From Natronorubrum aibiense (lineage in GTDB: Archaea > Halobacteriota > Halobacteria > Halobacteriales > Natrialbaceae): 64,000 nt of DNA. The notes under the pieces are model-generated. The model saw nothing but the letters and a program-made list of their open reading frames with translations. It did not search any database and was not told where the DNA came from. The translations under genes and the position numbers were made by a program. Shown in pieces: positions 5,847 through 31,004 of the stretch. The stretch is taken from NCBI RefSeq assembly GCF_009392895.1, contig NZ_CP045488.1, positions 2,418,001-2,482,000 on the forward strand. Direction: 5' to 3'. How positions within the stretch are numbered: the stretch's first letter is position 1; each line of letters opens with the position of its first letter.

Positions 5847-7007
5847 ATGTCGAAGGGACAACTGTTTACAACGGCGGGTGGAGAACAAACGGACTCACCG
5901 ACAGTACCGGCAGACGACGTCGTCCTCGAACTCGAGGGCGTCGGCAAACGGTACGGGTCCGAAGAGGTCATTCCACAACTCTCCTTGTCCGTCCACGACG
6001 GCGAAATTCTCACGCTGCTCGGCCCATCGGGCTGTGGCAAAACGACGACACTCCGGCTGATCGCTGGCCTCGAGAGACCAAACGCCGGACGCATTCGGTT
6101 GCAAGGCAACGACGTTGCCGGCAACGGTCGGTTCGTCCCGCCGGAAGAGCGTGGCGTCGGCGTCGTGTTCCAGGAGTTCGCCCTCTTTCCGCACCTGACC
6201 GCCCGTGAGAACGTCGCCTTCGGACTCCAAGAGTGGTCCGAAGCCGACCGCGACACCCGTGTCGACGAACTGCTCGAACTCGTCGGCCTCGAGTCGCAGG
6301 GCGAGGCATACCCAGACGAACTCTCCGGTGGGCAACAACAGCGGATCGCACTCGCCCGCTCGCTCGCCCCCGAACCCGAGATGCTGTTACTCGACGAACC
6401 GTTCTCGAATCTGGACGTCGACCTGCGCGTCGAGATGCGCGAGGAAGTTCGTCGGATCATCAAAGAAGCCGGGGTCACGGCTATCTCGGTCACTCACGAT
6501 CAGGAGGAGGCACTTTCGATCTCCGATCGCGTCGCCGTGATGAACGATGGCGATATCGAACAGGTTGACACCCCGCAGCAGGTCTTCCAGCAGCCGGAAT
6601 CCCGATTCGTCGCCGGCTTCCTCGGCCACGCGAGCTTCCTCTCCGGAGCAGTTCACGGCGACAGCGTCGACACCGCACTTGGCCGTGTGCTCCGGGACGA
6701 CGTCAACGGCCTCGCCCATCAGTACGACGGCTCTAACATCGACCTGCTCGTCCGCCCCGACGACGTGACCGCCTTCCCGGCCGAAGACGACGAGACCAAC
6801 GGCCGTGTCGTCTATCGTCGGTATCTCGGCCCGACGGTCCTCTATCGTGTGGAACTCGACTCGGGTGAAACGATCGAGTGTATGCACAACCACTCCGATC
6901 AACTCGACCTCGACGAGCGCGTCGCCGTCCGGGTCACCGCCGACCACGAACTCGCGTGGTTCCCGGTCGACCAGCGCGACGAAACGGCAGCCATCGCGTC
7001 GGACTGA
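5847..7007 (+). CDS. ABC transporter ATP-binding protein (iron(III)/spermidine-putrescine class)
   Basis: 386 residues from ATG 5847, with GGAGGG at 5834-5839 as ribosome site. Walker A is GPSGCGKT (59-66), the signature is LSGGQQQR (159-166), Walker B is MLLLDEPFSNLD (from 179), and the switch His is in ISVTHDQEEAL. A C-terminal TOBE-like domain (about 290-380) puts it in the FbpC/PotA subgroup that energises iron(III), thiamine or polyamine importers. No permease or binding-protein gene is adjacent, so it is an orphan ATPase that must partner with subunits encoded elsewhere. The palindrome at 5794-5811 suggests metal-responsive control and favours iron as substrate, but this is inference. 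Confidence 0.85.
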   Translation: MSKGQLFTTAGGEQTDSPTVPADDVVLELEGVGKRYGSEEVIPQLSLSVHDGEILTLLGPSGCGKTTTLRLIAGLERPNAGRIRLQGNDVAGNGRFVPPEERGVGVVFQEFALFPHLTARENVAFGLQEWSEADRDTRVDELLELVGLESQGEAYPDELSGGQQQRIALARSLAPEPEMLLLDEPFSNLDVDLRVEMREEVRRIIKEAGVTAISVTHDQEEALSISDRVAVMNDGDIEQVDTPQQVFQQPESRFVAGFLGHASFLSGAVHGDSVDTALGRVLRDDVNGLAHQYDGSNIDLLVRPDDVTAFPAEDDETNGRVVYRRYLGPTVLYRVELDSGETIECMHNHSDQLDLDERVAVRVTADHELAWFPVDQRDETAAIASD

Positions 7008-18361: not shown

Positions 18362-19207
18362 TCAACGCCGGCGAAGCGTCCGCAGCGACGGCACGCGGCC
18401 GTTCACCCACGATGAGATCGACCATCGACCGACGAGGATGCCGGCGAGTTCGACGCTGAGATACGCGAGGACGACGCCGGCGAGCACGTCGATTGCCCAG
18501 TGAATACCGAGGTACATCGTCGAAATCGCGACGGAGAGCCCGAGTACGGCCGCGACGACGTTCCACATTGGATAGTACGCTCGAGTGCGGTAGGCCAGGA
18601 TGGAGACGGTCGCGGCGAGCGAGGTGTGCAGCGACGGGAAGACGTTGGTGTTGCGGTTGACCTGTCGCGTGAGGTGTTGGTACTGCGGATACGTATCGTA
18701 CAACAGTGCATCGACGAGTTCGGGCATCATGTTTCGCGGCCCGTAGGCGATGACGAAGACGTACACCGCCAGTCCGATGGTGTAGTTCAGCGTGTACGCC
18801 GTCAGGAGTTCCCGGAGTTGACGCGTCTCCGAGAGCGCGAAGTACGCAACGACGGGAAACGCCAGCAAGAAGACGTAGCCGTAGATGTAGATGAACGAGA
18901 AGTACGCCGTCACTGCCGGCGTCGCCTGTGCCTGCAGCCAGACGATGAACTGTCCCTCGAGGTCGTAGATCGCCCAGGTAAGATTCCAGTCGATCATCCA
19001 CGAGAGTTCCGGGCCAACCTGTCTAGCGACGCTGTTCAAGAGCAACGCCGAGGCGAGGACGACGGTGATCGGTGCGGCCGCCCGCACTCGGTGTCGCCAC
19101 GCGCCGCGCGTCTCTCGGAGTCGATCCCGACCGACGAACAGCGCGGTCGAGAGGAGAAGAAGTCCCGTCACGACCACGATCAACTGGACTAACACTCTGC
19201 CGAGCAT
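18362..19207 (-). CDS. PAP2 superfamily membrane phosphatase, copy 1
   Basis: 281 residues from ATG 19207. This ATG overlaps the TAA of the upstream lipoprotein gene (TAATG), so translation is coupled. About seven to eight hydrophobic segments. Catalytic motifs are AYGPRN (conserved Arg region), NTNVFPSLHTSLAAT (PSLHTS in place of PSGH, catalytic His) and STMYLGIHWAIDVLAG (second catalytic His and Asp). Layout and motifs fit the PAP2_3/inositolphosphotransferase-like branch: lipid phosphate phosphatases or phosphotransferases with active site outside the membrane. It is paralogous to 21104-21973 (YFSFIYIYGYVFLLAFPVVA is nearly identical there). Substrate unknown; pairing with an extracytoplasmic lipoprotein suggests they work on the same surface. 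Confidence 0.85.
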   Translation of the reverse strand: MLGRVLVQLIVVVTGLLLLSTALFVGRDRLRETRGAWRHRVRAAAPITVVLASALLLNSVARQVGPELSWMIDWNLTWAIYDLEGQFIVWLQAQATPAVTAYFSFIYIYGYVFLLAFPVVAYFALSETRQLRELLTAYTLNYTIGLAVYVFVIAYGPRNMMPELVDALLYDTYPQYQHLTRQVNRNTNVFPSLHTSLAATVSILAYRTRAYYPMWNVVAAVLGLSVAISTMYLGIHWAIDVLAGVVLAYLSVELAGILVGRWSISSWVNGRVPSLRTLRRR

Positions 19208-21003
19208 TACTGTCTCACCCGCAGGTTTCCGTCGGCATCGTACCGAAACCCGGCCTCCTCGAACGCCGTTCGTGCTGCATCGACGTCGACCTCGCCGTTC
19301 GATCCCAGAAACGGCGTCTCCGGATCCGAACCGTTCCACGCGAGGTGGTCGGGAACCCACTCGTCGGTCAACGGTGTCGCGATCGGATTCGCGTGACCGT
19401 GGAAAACGTCGTCAACCAGCCACGCCTTGTCGATCAACTGCGCGACGACCTGTCGAAACCGGGGGTTTCCAAACGGTGCCCGCCGAGCGTTGAACCCGAG
19501 GTGGTAGAACGTCCACGACGGCGACTCGAGCAGTCGAACGCCGTCCGGTTCCTCGACGTCCTCGATGACGTAGCTCTCGAGGATCGAACTCGTGACGTCG
19601 GCGTTGTCGTTTTCGAGTAGTTGCATCGCCGACGTGCTCCGAGGATTGATCTCGATCCGTACCGCCTCGACGGTCGGTGCTGGCAACTCGACGCCGTCAC
19701 GACGCGTGAAATGCTCGTCGAAGCGCTCGAGGGTGACGTGCTCGCGCTCGGTGTGGGTCCCGTACTGAAACGGGCCACTCCCGATCGGTGGGATGTTGTC
19801 CGTGACTACCGCCTGCGTCGTCCCCTGTGCGACGCGGACGCCGGGGACGGTGGCAGGTGTTGCTCGATCTGACCAGTGATGCTCGGGCAGGATCGGCACT
19901 GTCAATGCGCGTTCGCCAACCGCCTGTCCAGTCTCGACCGTTAGCTCGAGGCTGTCCTCGCTTTGTGCATCGATATCGTCGATCGCCTCGACGGCACCTC
20001 GATAGCGCGGGGCCGGCGCGGGCGACGTGCTGGTCCCGAGGGCGGTGTCATCGAGGAGCCGATACGTAAAGACGACGTCGTCGGCCGTCACCGACACGCC
20101 GTCGTGAAACGTACAGTCCGGACGGAGAGTCACGCGCAGCGTCGACTCGTCGGTCCACTCCCAGCCGTCGGCGAGCCACGGCTCGAGTGTGTGTGTGCCG
20201 TCTTCGGCCACGAGATCGGCGACCAGCGAGTCGTACAGCAGGTCGGTGACCGTTCCCCGGCCACGGTATTCGGCGTTCAACGGATTGAGGTTCTGGGACG
20301 GTCGGGCGTCCGTGTGGACGACCCGAAGCTGCTCGGCGCTGTCGTCAGTCTGTGGCTCGAGACCGAGATACCCCGTTCGCGTCGCGAGATGGCCCGCGTC
20401 CCAACCATCGAATCGGTCGTCTCTGACGAGCCGGTGCTCGATCGGGGTGCAGATCGGTACGAACGGCTGTTCGATCGACAGTGCCTCGAGAATGTCTTCG
20501 ACGGCGTCGCGGCGTTCGTCCCCGTCGGCGTCGCGCTGGGCCTCGAGTAAGTCGTCGAGCAGCAGATTCGTAAAGCCGAACGGGTTCTGCCAGCCGGACT
20601 CGTCGGCGTACAACGAGTGGAGCATCTCGTAGAGGAAGTCCGGGTCGGTGTCTCCGGGATGGCGACCAACGTAGAGGTCGAAGTCGTGATTGATCAGGAC
20701 CGTCCGCAGGAACTCTTCGTCGGCTTGCATCTCGATGGCGACGTCGATGCCGACGGCCTCGAGCACCGTCGCGATCTCTCGGGCGAGGCGGATGCTCTCT
20801 CGATCACCGTCGGCGGACAGCGTCGTGATGGTCACCGACAGCTGTTGGATATCGTCTCGGTTGACGACGCTGCGAAGTTGGCGGACACAGCCGCTGGTCG
20901 ACGCCGTTAGCCCGACGGCACCGGCCAGCGCAGCCCGACGGCTGATGCCGCCAGCGCTGTCTCCGGTGATGTCTTGGTCCGGAATGGTCCGTCCGCGACT
21001 CAT
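19207..21003 (-). CDS. Tat lipoprotein of the peptide-binding (SBP_bac_5) family with permuted domain order, copy 1
   Basis: 598 residues. The signal has SRR at 21-23 and a lipobox ending at Cys39, giving a Tat-exported surface lipoprotein. The body resembles DppA/OppA-type solute-binding proteins in rearranged order. Residues about 52-200 (LSVTITTLSADGD, VGIDVAI, NHDFDLYVGRHPGDTDPDFLY, PFVPICTPIEH) look like the normal C-terminal part. Residues about 225-598 then start with the normal N-terminal part (LRVVHTDARPSQNLNPL, LLYDSL, PWLADGWEW, FHDGVSVTADDVVFTY) and end in the normal middle (FYHLGFNARRAPFGNPRFRQ, AARTAFEEAGFRYDADGNLR). No transporter subunits are nearby. See findings. Confidence 0.85.
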   Translation of the reverse strand: MSRGRTIPDQDITGDSAGGISRRAALAGAVGLTASTSGCVRQLRSVVNRDDIQQLSVTITTLSADGDRESIRLAREIATVLEAVGIDVAIEMQADEEFLRTVLINHDFDLYVGRHPGDTDPDFLYEMLHSLYADESGWQNPFGFTNLLLDDLLEAQRDADGDERRDAVEDILEALSIEQPFVPICTPIEHRLVRDDRFDGWDAGHLATRTGYLGLEPQTDDSAEQLRVVHTDARPSQNLNPLNAEYRGRGTVTDLLYDSLVADLVAEDGTHTLEPWLADGWEWTDESTLRVTLRPDCTFHDGVSVTADDVVFTYRLLDDTALGTSTSPAPAPRYRGAVEAIDDIDAQSEDSLELTVETGQAVGERALTVPILPEHHWSDRATPATVPGVRVAQGTTQAVVTDNIPPIGSGPFQYGTHTEREHVTLERFDEHFTRRDGVELPAPTVEAVRIEINPRSTSAMQLLENDNADVTSSILESYVIEDVEEPDGVRLLESPSWTFYHLGFNARRAPFGNPRFRQVVAQLIDKAWLVDDVFHGHANPIATPLTDEWVPDHLAWNGSDPETPFLGSNGEVDVDAARTAFEEAGFRYDADGNLRVRQ

Positions 21004-21031
21004 TTCGTTCGTTTGTTACGGTTCGCCGGCG

Positions 21032-21050
21032 GTGATATAACAGTATTGTG
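21032..21050 (-). promoter_or_regulatory. Promoter of cassette copy 1
   Basis: On the minus strand CAATACTGTTATATCACC lies about 30-45 bases before the ATG at 21003. It matches CAATATTGTTATATACC before copy 2 in both sequence and spacing, so the element (TATA box plus upstream CAATAyTG) was duplicated and kept. Confidence 0.6.
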
Positions 21051-21103
21051 TGAGCCCGGCTAGCGACCGGGGCATCTCGATCGGAGCAGTCCGGTATCTC
21101 GTC

Positions 21104-21973
21104 TCAGAACCGGTCTCGGTCGATGTCTGATAGTCGTTCGGACAGTTGTTCGGACAGCTCCGAAAGCGACCAGCGGCCGACGAGGCGGTACGAGAGGGCG
21201 ACACAGAGCACCGCGAGGACGAGCCCCGCGAGAACGTCGATCCCCCAGTGCAGTCCCAGATACATCGTCGAGATGATGACGCTGACGGCGAGAACGACGG
21301 CGATCGGGAGCCACTTCGGATAGCTCGAGCGGGTGAGATAGGCGAAGATCCCGACCGTAGCCGACAGCGAGGTGTGCAGCGACGGGAAGACGTTGGTGTT
21401 GCGGTTGACTTCCCGAGTCAGATACTTGAACTCGGGGGTGTGGTCGTAAAGGATCGTCGACGACCCCGTCCCCGAACTCGCACTCGCAATCAGCTCGTCG
21501 ACGAATACGTTCCGCGGACCGTACGCGATCACGAGTGCGTACAACACGAGTCCGAGCGCGTAGTTGAACGCGTACGCCGTGAGCAGCCGCCGGAACATCT
21601 TGGTGTCCGACAGGGCGAAATACGCCACGACCGGGAAGACCAGCAGGAAGGTGTAGCCGTAGACGTAAATAAACGAGAAGTACGTCGTTAGCTCAGGGCT
21701 AGCGATCTTCTGAAAGATCAGGACGAACTCACCTTCGATCCTCACGATCGTCGAGGTCATGTGGATGCCGAATCCCGTACCGTCCTGTCGGATCGTTCGG
21801 TTGAGCAACAACACGGCCGAAACGATGAGAATCGCTGGGCCGGAGATCCGAAACCGAGAGCGCCACTCGGTTCGCGTCGCCGCGAGCCGCTCGAGGCCGA
21901 CGAACAGCCCGAGTGAGATCGGGAGCAAAAACCCGACGACGAGAACGACTCGAGTCAGTACCTCAGAGAGCAT
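21104..21973 (-). CDS. PAP2 superfamily membrane phosphatase, copy 2
   Basis: 289 residues, ATG at 21973 overlapping the TGA of the upstream lipoprotein gene (TGATG). Motifs match copy 1: AYGPRN, NTNVFPSLHTSLSAT, STMYLGLHWGIDVLAG, with both catalytic His and the Asp present. It has an extra Ser/Gly-rich insert (IASASSGTGSSTIL) before the second motif and a longer charged C-terminus. About seven hydrophobic segments. The second half of a duplicated lipoprotein-PAP2 cassette. Biochemical substrate unknown; lipid pyrophosphate or phospholipid-like compounds are typical for the family. Confidence 0.85.
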   Translation of the reverse strand: MLSEVLTRVVLVVGFLLPISLGLFVGLERLAATRTEWRSRFRISGPAILIVSAVLLLNRTIRQDGTGFGIHMTSTIVRIEGEFVLIFQKIASPELTTYFSFIYVYGYTFLLVFPVVAYFALSDTKMFRRLLTAYAFNYALGLVLYALVIAYGPRNVFVDELIASASSGTGSSTILYDHTPEFKYLTREVNRNTNVFPSLHTSLSATVGIFAYLTRSSYPKWLPIAVVLAVSVIISTMYLGLHWGIDVLAGLVLAVLCVALSYRLVGRWSLSELSEQLSERLSDIDRDRF

Positions 21974-23922
21974 CAGTATCGGTTTTGCAGCCGACCCTCA
22001 TCGTCGTACCGGAATCCGGCCGACTCGAACGCGGCGCGTGCAGCCTCGGCGTTGAGTGTTCCATCGGATCCGATAAACGGAGTCCTGGAATCTTCACCAT
22101 CCCATGTGAGATCGTCGGGGACCCACTCGTCGGCGACTGGACTCGAGAGCGGCGTTGCGTGATCGTAGAAGATCTGTCTGGCGATCCAGTCTTTGTCGAT
22201 GAGTTGGCACACCGCTCGACGGAAGCGGGGATCGCTACACGGCGACACACGCGTATTAAATCCGAGGTGATAGAACGTCCACGACGGGTCCTCGAGCCGT
22301 TCGGCGTCGGAATCGTCCGAGATGTTACCGATCGCGTGTGACTCGAGCATCGACGATGTTAGATCGCCGTCGCCGCTTTCGACCCGTGAAATCGAGGAGG
22401 TACTGCCGGGGTCGACAGTGAAGCGAAGCTCGTCGACGGTCGGTTCTGGGAGGTCGACATCCGCTCGGAGAGTGAAGTGGTCGTCGAAGCGCTCGAGATT
22501 CAGATAGCTCCGCTCGGACTGGCTCTCGAACTGGAAGGGGCCGCTCCCGATCGGTGGGACGGAGTTGGTGGTGACGAGTCCCCACCGTCCCTGCGAGGCA
22601 GTGAAGTCGTCGACGTTGTTGATTCGGTCTTTGAGTTCTTCCCGCCAGATATGGCGAGGGAGAATCGGGACCGTCAGCGCGCGTTCGATGACCTCGCGGC
22701 CAGCGTCGAAAATGATCCGCAGTCGATAATCGTCACGTGGATCGGTCTCGATTCTGTTGACCGCGCTCACCTGACCGCGGTACCGGGGGGCTGGCGACGG
22801 GCGAACCGACTGACCGAGTGCGGTATCCTTGAGGAACCGGTAGGTGAACGCGACGTCTGCGGCAGTGACCGGCTCGCCGTCGTGGAACGTACAGTCCTCT
22901 CGAAGTCGTACTGTCGCGGCCATCGCGTCGTCGTCGACCGATTCGGCGTCGAGTGTGCTGTTATCGACCGATTCGGCGTCGAGTGTGCTGTTATCGACCG
23001 ATTCGGCGTCGAGTGTACTGTTATCGACTGTTTCGGACTCGTTCATCGCGGCTCCCCCTGCGTAGAACTCGTCCACTTCGGCGGCCGGTTCCAGCTCCCA
23101 GGAGTCGGCGAGCCACGGCTGGACCTCGTAGGAGACACTGTCGTCTTCCTCGGTTACATCGAGCGTTCCGAGGGAGTCGTACAACAGGTTGACGACCGTC
23201 CCCCGCTCGCTGATCGTCGCCGACAGCGGGTTGACGTTTTGGGAGGGACGCGCGTCGGTCACGAGCGCGTGAAGCCGGTCGACGCCGTCGTCCGGCTCGA
23301 GGCCGAGATACCCCTGTCGAGTCGCGGGATGGGCGTTCTCCCAGCCCTCGAATCGAGCGCTGGCGACGCGGTTTTCGTCGGGCCGACAGATCGGGTCGAA
23401 CGGCTTCTCTTCGGCGAGTGCTCGCAGCACCGGTTTGAGTCGTTCGCGTCGTTCGTCGCCGTCGGCGCGGCGCTGTTCTTCGAGGAGGGGATCGAAGAAC
23501 GTCGGATTGGAGTACTGAAACGGATTCTGCCAGCCGGCTTCGTCGGCGTACCGCGAGTGGAGGGCCTCGTAGAGGAAGTCGGGATCGTAATCGGCGGGAT
23601 GGCGACCGACGTAGAGGTCGAAGTCGCGGTCGATGAGGATCATTTCCAGAAACTCGGAGGGCGACCGCCAGGCGATGGTGGTGTTGATACCGACCGCTTC
23701 GAGGTTCCGCTCGAGATGGCGTGCGATACGGACCGTCTCTCTGTTGCCATCGTCGGGGACCGTGACGAGTGACAACGAGAGGTTGTCGTCACCATCGTTG
23801 CTGACGACACTTTCGACGCTATCGATGCAGCCGCTCAGCGAAATCGACAGTCCTGCCCCGGCAGCAGCGAGGACTGAACGGCGATCGATACCGTCAGTAT
23901 TGTCGGTTTTATCACAGTTCAT
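21973..23922 (-). CDS. Tat lipoprotein of the peptide-binding family with permuted domain order, copy 2
   Basis: 649 residues. DRR at 13-15 and lipobox Cys32 give Tat export and lipid anchoring. Same permuted layout as copy 1: first the normally C-terminal part (LSLSLVTVPDDGN, VGINTTIAW, DRDFDLYVGRHPADYDPDFL, NPFQYSNPTFFDPLLEEQ, PFDPICRPDENR), then the normally N-terminal part (LVTDARPSQNVNPL, LLYDSLG, PWLADSWELE, CTFHDGEPVTAADVAFTY), ending with FYHLGFNTRVSPCSDPRFRR and AARAAFESAGFRYDDEGRLQ. Compared with copy 1 it has an insert of about 45 residues containing three ESVDNSTLDA repeats. The two copies have diverged widely, so the duplication is old or came by transfer. Ligand unknown. Confidence 0.85.
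   Translation of the reverse strand: MNCDKTDNTDGIDRRSVLAAAGAGLSISLSGCIDSVESVVSNDGDDNLSLSLVTVPDDGNRETVRIARHLERNLEAVGINTTIAWRSPSEFLEMILIDRDFDLYVGRHPADYDPDFLYEALHSRYADEAGWQNPFQYSNPTFFDPLLEEQRRADGDERRERLKPVLRALAEEKPFDPICRPDENRVASARFEGWENAHPATRQGYLGLEPDDGVDRLHALVTDARPSQNVNPLSATISERGTVVNLLYDSLGTLDVTEEDDSVSYEVQPWLADSWELEPAAEVDEFYAGGAAMNESETVDNSTLDAESVDNSTLDAESVDNSTLDAESVDDDAMAATVRLREDCTFHDGEPVTAADVAFTYRFLKDTALGQSVRPSPAPRYRGQVSAVNRIETDPRDDYRLRIIFDAGREVIERALTVPILPRHIWREELKDRINNVDDFTASQGRWGLVTTNSVPPIGSGPFQFESQSERSYLNLERFDDHFTLRADVDLPEPTVDELRFTVDPGSTSSISRVESGDGDLTSSMLESHAIGNISDDSDAERLEDPSWTFYHLGFNTRVSPCSDPRFRRAVCQLIDKDWIARQIFYDHATPLSSPVADEWVPDDLTWDGEDSRTPFIGSDGTLNAEAARAAFESAGFRYDDEGRLQNRY
22934..23030. 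repeat. Three tandem 30-base repeats inside the copy 2 lipoprotein gene
   Basis: Units at 22934-22963, 22964-22993 and 22994-23023 differ by one base, with a partial fourth to about 23030. In frame they encode ESVDNSTLDA three times. NST is an N-glycosylation sequon (N-x-S/T), so the repeat multiplies possible glycosylation sites on this surface protein. Near identity means recent expansion by slippage or unequal exchange. Confidence 0.9.
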
Positions 23923-23950: not shown

Positions 23951-23965
23951 TATATAACAATATTG
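23951..23965 (-). promoter_or_regulatory. Promoter of cassette copy 2
   Basis: On the minus strand CAATATTGTTATATACC lies about 33 bases (TATA centre) before the ATG at 23922. It is nearly identical to the element before copy 1. Confidence 0.6.
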
Positions 23966-29600: not shown

Positions 29601-29882
29601 TTCGTTTTCCGAATGATCTAGATTCAACAGATAGCAGCGGGTCGCTTATAAAGAGACGCCACTGCGCGCGAAATAATCAGGCAGCCCGTGAGAACGACGG
29701 TCCGCCGGTGTCGGTCGCCGACGACTGACCCGTTTCCGCGGTGAGCAGTTCTTCACCGATACAATAATGGCAAACGTTTTGACCGGTCCATTCGACAACA
29801 GGTCTATGCGACGATCTCAGTGGAGCCGAACAGTTGCGATCCGGGGGTGCGACCGGCTCGCACACCTGACCCCAGTAAGCCC

Positions 29883-31004
29883 ATGAGCCAACATCGGCGA
29901 ACGTTCCTCGCGACCACCGGAGCGATCGCAGTCGGTGGCTGTGTCGTACCCGACTTCGATCCGACCGTCACCGACGACCGCGATTCTACTGCCGATCGCG
30001 ACGGCGACGGCGGCGGGCGCACCGAAACGACGATCGGCTTCGCCGGCGATACGATGGTCGGGCGGAAGCTCAACCGGCAATACGGGCGGCCCGACGTCGA
30101 CCCGGCGACGATCTGGGGTGACCTCCAGCCCCGGCTCGAGTCCCTCGACGGCGTCTGTTGTAACCTTGAGTGTTGTCTGTCGACGCGTGGTGAACCGGCC
30201 CCCGGACGGACGTATCACTTTCGCGGCGATCCGGAGTGGGCGGTCCCCGCGCTCAGCGCAGGGAACGTTCGGTTCGCATCGCTGGCGAACAATCACGCGA
30301 TGGATTACGGGCCGGTTTCACTGACCGACACGATAGACGCGCTCACCGAGGCGGGAATCGACGTCGCGGGTGCCGGCGAGACGCCGGCGGCGGCCCGCTC
30401 GCCGGCCACGTTTTCCGTCGGCGACGTCGCCGTCGCCGTCGTCTCGTTCGCGGACCGATACGTGGGCTACGCTGCGACCGACGACCGGCCGGGAATCGCC
30501 CACATCGCTCCGGATCCGTCGGCTCCCGAAACCCAGCGGGTCGTCGGCGAGGCGATCGAGCGCGCGAAGGCGACCAATCCAGATCTCCTCGTCGCCTCTG
30601 TTCACCTGGGACCCAACTGGGTCGAGCGTCCCAGCGGACAGCTCGTCGCGTTCAATCACTGGCTCGTCGATCGGGGCGTCGACCTCGTTCACGGTCACAG
30701 CGCCCACATCGTGCAGGGGATCGAGCAATACGGCGATGGCGTCGTGCTCCACGACACCGGCGATTTCGTCGACGATTTCGGGGTCAAAGAAGACCTCCGA
30801 AACGACCGCAGCTACCTCTTCGAAGTGACGCTCGAGGACGGAACTCTTCAGGAGATACGGCTCGTTCCGATCGAAATCGACGACGGCGTCTCCCGCGCCG
30901 GCGAGGAGTCGGCGGCGTGGCTCAGGGAGCGGATGCGTGCTCGGTCCGCGCCGTTTGAGACGACGTACGAACGGGACGGGGATGGGCTCGTGGTCCCGCT
31001 GTGA
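29883..31004 (+). CDS. CapA family lipoprotein (metallophosphatase-like)
   Basis: 373 residues from ATG 29883. Signal: RR at 5-6, hydrophobic ATTGAIAVGGC, lipobox Cys20, then an acidic linker. The enzyme-like part has the CapA pattern: IGFAGDTMVGR, CCNLECCLS, FASLANNHAMDYG, HLGPNW, VHGHSAHIVQGIE. These positions hold the metal ligands of the calcineurin-like fold. CapA takes part in poly-gamma-glutamate export/synthesis in bacilli, and some haloarchaea make that polymer. No capB/capC genes are adjacent, so the actual role is open. Stands alone after tRNA-Arg. Confidence 0.85.
   Translation: MSQHRRTFLATTGAIAVGGCVVPDFDPTVTDDRDSTADRDGDGGGRTETTIGFAGDTMVGRKLNRQYGRPDVDPATIWGDLQPRLESLDGVCCNLECCLSTRGEPAPGRTYHFRGDPEWAVPALSAGNVRFASLANNHAMDYGPVSLTDTIDALTEAGIDVAGAGETPAAARSPATFSVGDVAVAVVSFADRYVGYAATDDRPGIAHIAPDPSAPETQRVVGEAIERAKATNPDLLVASVHLGPNWVERPSGQLVAFNHWLVDRGVDLVHGHSAHIVQGIEQYGDGVVLHDTGDFVDDFGVKEDLRNDRSYLFEVTLEDGTLQEIRLVPIEIDDGVSRAGEESAAWLRERMRARSAPFETTYERDGDGLVVPL

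Follow-up and report, generated by a model that had tools for sequence, protein, structure and literature searches.

Two tandem copies of a two-gene cassette, each encoding a circularly permuted substrate-binding protein (SBP) with a lipoprotein signal and a membrane enzyme of the PAP2 superfamily, are present in a 64-kb stretch of the Natronorubrum aibiense genome (assembly GCF_009392895.1, contig NZ_CP045488.1, positions 2,418,001 to 2,482,000; hereafter the window). The same pair is conserved across Halobacteria, and the SBP lipoprotein and the PAP2 enzyme are very probably functional partners. The safest reading is that the lipoprotein is the fixed partner of an outward-facing enzyme that acts on lipid phosphates. 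The system is real and conserved, and no description of a haloarchaeal SBP-PAP2 lipoprotein system was found in the open-licence PMC papers searched. The proposal of an undescribed envelope system, made in an initial annotation from the DNA sequence alone, is supported. The two cassettes lie on the minus strand with all four genes in the same orientation, as listed below.

SBP-A, 21973..23922, minus strand: permuted SBP_bac_5 lipoprotein of the twin-arginine (Tat) type, 649 residues, assigned from Pfam and from the RR pair and lipobox of aligned relatives
PAP2-A, 21104..21973, minus strand: PAP2_3 membrane enzyme, 289 residues; its start overlaps the SBP-A stop as TGATG
SBP-B, 19207..21003, minus strand: permuted SBP_bac_5 Tat lipoprotein, 598 residues, assigned from Pfam, PDB alignment and an AlphaFold2 model
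PAP2-B, 18362..19207, minus strand: PAP2_3 membrane enzyme, 281 residues; its start overlaps the SBP-B stop as TAATG

The coupling of each lipoprotein gene to a PAP2 gene by these stop-start overlaps and the tandem duplication of the two-gene unit had both been noted in the initial annotation, and both are borne out; SBP-A and SBP-B are 48% identical, and PAP2-A and PAP2-B are 54% identical. Two more single SBP-PAP2 cassettes are encoded elsewhere in this genome (L031 6725-9432 and L032 6193-8922), and their SBPs are 45% and 35% identical to SBP-B, respectively.

Conservation of the SBP-PAP2 pair in Halobacteria

A gene-neighbourhood survey, which had been suggested as a check, was conducted with 75 named loci taken from the best 80 of 259 relatives; among these loci, the strain of L051 contributes a second copy, L052, and L086 matches L033. 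The pair of PAP2 and SBP_bac_5 genes is conserved across Halobacteria. A PAP2 gene follows directly on the same strand for 98 of the 113 full-length permuted SBPs in these loci. The PAP2 gene overlaps the stop codon of the SBP gene in 60 of these pairs, starts 1-27 nucleotides beyond it in 35, and starts 103-160 nucleotides beyond it in the remaining 3.

Co-occurrence was scored in 391 haloarchaeal genomes from the best few candidates of each genome, with a PAP2 profile derived from SBP-adjacent genes and with presence lists and genus labels transcribed by hand. The cut-offs (E of 1e-30 for the SBP and 1e-60 for PAP2) were picked after the gap in the scores was seen. The SBP profile matches some protein in 376 of these genomes and a permuted-type SBP (E < 1e-30) in 264. 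Both partners are found in 263 genomes, an SBP alone in 1, a PAP2 alone in 0, and neither in 127. The permuted SBP of the sole SBP-only genome (G131) belongs to another permuted clade and has an OppB permease gene next to it. No genome has one partner alone within the 20 genera that contain both pair-positive (66) and pair-negative (80) genomes. The adjacency and the co-occurrence together rule out pairing by chance in this one genome, which had been named as an outcome that would count against the proposal. A wider distribution of the module was also considered and rejected, the close PAP2 relatives (E < 1e-70) among 392 genomes of the phylum being confined to Halobacteria. A scan of 9 non-halobacterial genomes with the SBP profile gave no full-length permuted match.

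Binding proteins of this type usually carry the expectation of a permease for an ATP-binding cassette (ABC) importer, and the initial annotation had pointed out that none accompanies the cassettes. No opp-type permease gene is present within the window, and among the 75 named loci only L096 encodes OppB, within an opposite-strand opp cluster that has its own SBP. The other outcome that would have counted against the proposal, homologous cassettes that always include ABC permease genes, is thus not what the survey returned. An OppF-like ATPase was detected at one further named locus (L120). In Haloterrigena-type genomes (L045, L048 and L096), the neighbor of the cassette on the opposite strand is a complete opp-type ABC cluster, which includes a separate SBP.

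The picture of permuted lipoproteins without permeases holds for the PAP2-linked cassettes, but permuted SBPs of other lineages adjoin OppB in some haloarchaea. The PAP2-linked SBPs form one clade on a long branch (SH-aLRT support of 100). OppB is encoded beside 9 of the 14 other permuted haloarchaeal SBPs in the tree (L096, L137, L151, L153-L157 and L171), and for the remaining 5 the short flank contained no OppB match. The permuted calls for L171, L170 and L096, all outside the PAP2 clade, rest on weak N-part matches of 8 to 18 bits. The OppB-adjacent permuted SBPs at L137, L151, L153-L157 and L171 apparently still serve ABC importers. The PAP2-linked and the OppB-linked proteins are alike in being permuted and in having the partner gene directly downstream (L137, L151 and L153-L157), and the break point of L137 in the sequence equals that of the cassette SBPs, just past the AGY helix. 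They differ in that the partner of the latter is an ABC permease and in that the two sets are separate groups in the tree. The quick tree does not join them, and it is compatible with a single origin of the permutation. That PAP2 took over the place of OppB in the operon is an attractive possibility.

The permuted lipoprotein, the PAP2 enzyme and gene 3

The Pfam family SBP_bac_5 is matched with E values of 4e-45 for SBP-A and 2e-49 for SBP-B (154.8 and 169.2 bits, against a gathering cut-off of 32.4). Neither the RR pair nor the terminal G-C of the lipobox varies among the 20 aligned SBP relatives. The cassette SBPs do not have the canonical SBP_bac_5 chain order, being circularly permuted. 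In the best PDB match (5u4o), residues 62-190 of SBP-B align with residues 367-494, and residues 254-545 align with residues 69-329. The permutation is therefore real. An order test with two profiles classified the four full-length SBP matches of the window genome as permuted; its other four SBPs (L143-L146) comprise three canonical proteins and one with no order call, and OppB is encoded beside all four. The AlphaFold2 model of SBP-B has a pLDDT of 82.3 and a pTM of 0.81, and its residues 216-598 superpose on residues 18-357 of AppA with a Z score of 22.7 and a root-mean-square deviation of 2.8 over 332 aligned residues. The model thus predicts an SBP fold with both lobes intact. Within SBP-A, 3.4 copies of a 30-base tandem repeat (95% match) at 22934-23036 encode a VDNSTLDAES-type linker, which is absent from SBP-B and from the other aligned relatives.

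The PAP2 proteins match the Pfam family PAP2_3 with E values of 1.5e-19 and 2.7e-18 (71 and 66.9 bits, against a gathering cut-off of 27). The sequences GPR, FPSLH and TMYL..HW..DV are common to 19 of 19 aligned PAP2 proteins. The catalytic His and Asp motifs that had been recognized in the initial annotation are confirmed, with the C2 His and the C3 His-Asp invariant throughout this alignment and aligned with those of PgpB (5jwy) and YodM (5jki), which belong to the same superfamily. The C1 motif of PAP2 enzymes contains Lys and Arg-Pro. The invariant GPR lies in the expected region and is a candidate for this motif. The cassette enzymes differ from PgpB and YodM in having Thr for the C3 Arg and PSLH for PSGH. 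When aligned with the inositol phosphorylceramide synthase AUR1 (9vj3 and 9ivc), the letters of C2 (FPSLH) and of C3 (STMYL..H...D..AG) coincide, and the C3 Thr is the residue found in AUR1. From these comparisons the catalytic motifs look more like those of yeast AUR1, a phosphotransferase, than those of PgpB. The earlier assignment as a lipid phosphatase or phosphotransferase is narrowed accordingly: the AUR1-type motifs agree with a phosphotransferase, and a plain phosphatase fits less well. A crude topology analysis from hydropathy and charge places the catalytic loops outside, where the active site would face the exterior.

No ceramide pathway of the AUR1 kind is known in archaea, and no SBP partner is known for AUR1, PgpB or YodM. 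Nothing on a haloarchaeal inositol phosphorylceramide synthase was found in the open-licence PMC papers. Distant PAP2 relatives occur at two loci (L179 and L180, Methanosarcina-type by our own reading of the genus), where the genes that come next encode a GT28-like glycosyltransferase and LPG_synthase_TM, and no SBP was found beside them.

A third family was exposed by clustering the open reading frames around 53 loci. This protein, designated gene 3, has about 370-450 residues and is built from one N-terminal helix, an outer domain and five C-terminal transmembrane helices. The motifs WPYTS...TLAINV and H.EYWDWFRLRHTV are found in the outer domain. No Pfam match was obtained for gene 3, and the PDB search gave no convincing fold match (best Foldseek E of 0.26). 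The best Z score in the VIA structure search was 6.7, for the transmembrane part only, and the outer domain was barely tested by that search. An identification with LssY_C, suggested by eye, was dropped when Pfam gave nothing. Gene 3 is no known permease part.

Gene 3 often directly precedes the pair; in 16 genomes with readable coordinates, it is located upstream of PAP2 by one SBP length on the same strand. It was detected in 246 of the 391 genomes, 241 with the SBP-PAP2 pair and 5 without it; the pair occurs without gene 3 in 22 genomes, and neither is found in 123. Fisher p-values for the co-occurrence are descriptive here, the genomes being related. Gene 3 is commoner with the pair in 18 of the 20 mixed genera. 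The system probably has gene 3 as a third component. A GT-C glycosyltransferase is also often found beside gene 3, with a patchy distribution (80 of 391 genomes). The pair is present in 58 of the 80 genomes with this GT-C gene and in 205 of the 311 others, which is no association (p = 0.29). The GT-C gene is patchy yet unassociated with the pair, and patchiness alone thus does not yield the pattern of gene 3. An obligate fourth part of the system was therefore not assigned to GT-C. In at least 20 genomes (L042 9078-10682; G095, G122, G287, G322, G358 and others), a PMT_2-like GT-C gene lies less than 3 kb from either gene 3 or PAP2. The GT-C alignment was made with 4 of 8 candidates; L111 and L102, which gave stops, were left out together with L108 and L105.

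Proposed mechanism and alternative explanations

In the mechanism proposed here, the transporter-type, permuted lipoprotein anchored on the outer face would be the dedicated partner of the AUR1-like PAP2, and gene 3 would often be the third member of this envelope module. PAP2, whose active site would lie outside, would act on a membrane lipid or glycolipid by moving or removing its phosphorylated headgroup. The lipoprotein, perhaps in a physical complex with the enzyme, would bind the hydrophilic acceptor or the headgroup and pass it to PAP2 as an SBP passes cargo to a permease. Headgroup transfer is favored over hydrolysis because of the AUR1-type motifs, and ligand hand-over is favored because the predicted SBP fold is intact. 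The adjacency and co-occurrence of SBP and PAP2, the parallel distribution of gene 3, the crude topology, and the GT28-like and LPG_synthase_TM neighbors of the distant PAP2 relatives are also counted in favor, and comparative genomics gives good support to the partnership. The explanation as a whole, a conserved envelope module in which an SBP was recruited to an AUR1-like PAP2 and operates by this mechanism, is given a chance just short of even. The mechanism taken by itself is rated slightly lower. A three-part machine of the permuted SBP, the AUR1-like PAP2 and gene 3, in which a flytrap protein feeds a phosphotransferase and the captured molecule is joined to a surface lipid or glycan, is considered rather unlikely. 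If it were true, PAP2 would fill the operon slot that belongs to OppB in related permuted-SBP operons, and a transporter receptor would have been plugged into an enzyme instead.

Several observations weigh against these proposals. The overall similarity to AUR1 is weak (E of 0.005 with the profile to 0.024, and 0.022 with a single sequence), and the AUR1 likeness is thus a motif argument. No PAP2 gene is found directly downstream of 15 of the 113 permuted SBPs. One of these is at L100 (Halorussus amylolyticus), and the other 14 are second SBPs of the Natrinema type, in whose tandem loci SBP-B is kept and PAP2-B alone is missing (L021, L023, L024, L026, L029, L030; L064, L067, L069). Gene 3 was undetectable in the 22 pair-positive genomes mentioned above, and 5 genomes have it without the pair. 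In the window genome itself gene 3 is encoded at C1:703754-705094, away from the cassettes.

The nearest precedent for the general idea, by analogy, is found in mycobacteria, where two orphan SBP lipoproteins, LpqZ and FecB, are reported to bind the envelope enzymes AftA and AftB (PMC12802301). Like LpqZ and FecB, the cassette lipoproteins have an SBP fold, lie outside any ABC operon and are tied to a membrane enzyme, which in the mycobacterial case is one of envelope synthesis. The mycobacterial proteins belong to other SBP families, and their chain order is canonical or goes unreported. Their partner is a GT-C arabinosyltransferase encoded elsewhere, whereas the cassette lipoproteins have a PAP2 enzyme as partner, encoded by the gene that overlaps their own. 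Binding to the enzymes is reported for LpqZ and FecB, while the cassette partnership is deduced from gene linkage and co-occurrence. This precedent favors a scaffold role, in which the lipoprotein would bind no ligand and would act as a scaffold or chaperone that keeps PAP2, and possibly gene 3, placed or active. LpqZ and FecB are reported to act in this manner for AftA and AftB, with the interface conserved and the pocket not (PMC12802301). The obligate pairing of SBP and PAP2 also fits such a role, but the intact two-lobed fold predicted by AlphaFold2 argues against it, and it is judged unlikely. A naturally permuted, membrane-tethered SBP is known in TpMglB-2 (Tp0684), which PMC4990184 describes as having a glucose-binding type I fold and as thought to serve an ABC transporter. 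The cassette SBPs fall outside its 'Type Ic' class (type I, cluster B fold), being permuted but of the family-5 fold.

Venus-flytrap proteins often signal, and the SBP and PAP2 genes overlap in most loci; the lipoprotein could accordingly be a sensor through which an outside ligand switches PAP2 on or off. Pfam shows no signaling domain in either protein, and a sensor is regarded as distinctly improbable. It is less probable still that the SBP remains part of an importer, with PAP2 dephosphorylating a nutrient at the surface and the SBP passing the product to an Opp permease encoded elsewhere. Membership in the SBP_bac_5 family, the permuted SBPs of other lineages that adjoin OppB, and the SBP-OppB operons of the same genome, which make permeases available in trans, are all consistent with an importer. 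Against it stand the single clade of PAP2-linked SBPs, the near absence of OppB from the named loci, and the co-occurrence with gene 3. Moreover, not one of the 263 PAP2-positive genomes is without the SBP, and the one genome with the SBP alone carries an OppB-linked form. A similarly small chance is given to carrier-lipid recycling, with PAP2 as an ordinary phosphatase of polyprenyl diphosphates or lipids and the lipoprotein as a helper of low specificity. The PAP2 superfamily assignment agrees with this role, and in NCBIfam the models for PgpB and undecaprenyl-diphosphatases match best, with scores far under the cut-offs. The GT-C genes often found beside gene 3 or PAP2 encode would-be users of polyprenyl-phosphate sugars. 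However, the C2 and C3 motifs are of the AUR1 type, GT-C does not co-occur with the pair, and the lack of a cassette-type PAP2 in 128 of the 391 haloarchaea would be odd for a general step. A defense system was also considered and ruled out, PADLOC giving no match for the four cassette proteins or gene 3.

Most SBPs are annotated by default as transporter parts. In the large cassette set the partner gene nearly always encodes an enzyme, and the transporter annotations of these SBPs, along with the haloarchaeal transporter counts that include them, are therefore probably wrong. The module is a tractable case for testing the recruitment of binding proteins to enzymes, and it gives a context to the uncharacterized membrane-protein family of gene 3. 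It would also suggest that about two-thirds of the sampled haloarchaeal genomes (263 of 391) encode an undescribed modification of lipids or glycans.

Duplication, promoter-like element and neighboring genes

In quick trees of the SBPs, those of cassette A group with A and those of cassette B with B, and the PAP2 tree shows the same grouping (SH-aLRT support of 96-100); cassette B of Natribaculum is an exception and is unplaced. This matching grouping indicates that SBP and PAP2 were probably duplicated together, within Natrialbaceae or earlier. A promoter-like element, CAATAYTGTTATA, precedes each cassette.

CAATATTGTTATAT, 23952..23965, minus strand: promoter-like element before cassette A, one of the two exact CAATAYTGTTATA sites of the genome
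CAATACTGTTATAT, 21035..21048, minus strand: promoter-like element before cassette B, the other exact CAATAYTGTTATA site

These two sites are the only exact ones in the 4.35 Mb genome, and each is located about 30 nucleotides before a cassette start codon. Three sites with one mismatch are found elsewhere in the genome, and the reversed control has none. All 52 of the exact matches in the named loci lie within 110 nucleotides upstream of the start of SBP homology. They are distributed over 39 of the 75 loci, all of which are Natrialbaceae by their record names.

The cassettes are surrounded by ordinary genes, including those for the RNase P Rpr2 subunit (divergent), an MscS channel, CbiX and UbiA. 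An unrelated ABC ATPase of the PotA/PhnT type is encoded at 5847-7007 on the plus strand, with about 11 kb between it and the closest gene of the cassettes. A PGA_cap (capsule synthesis) family protein is encoded at 29820-31004 on the plus strand, and its N-terminus resembles a lipoprotein signal by eye.

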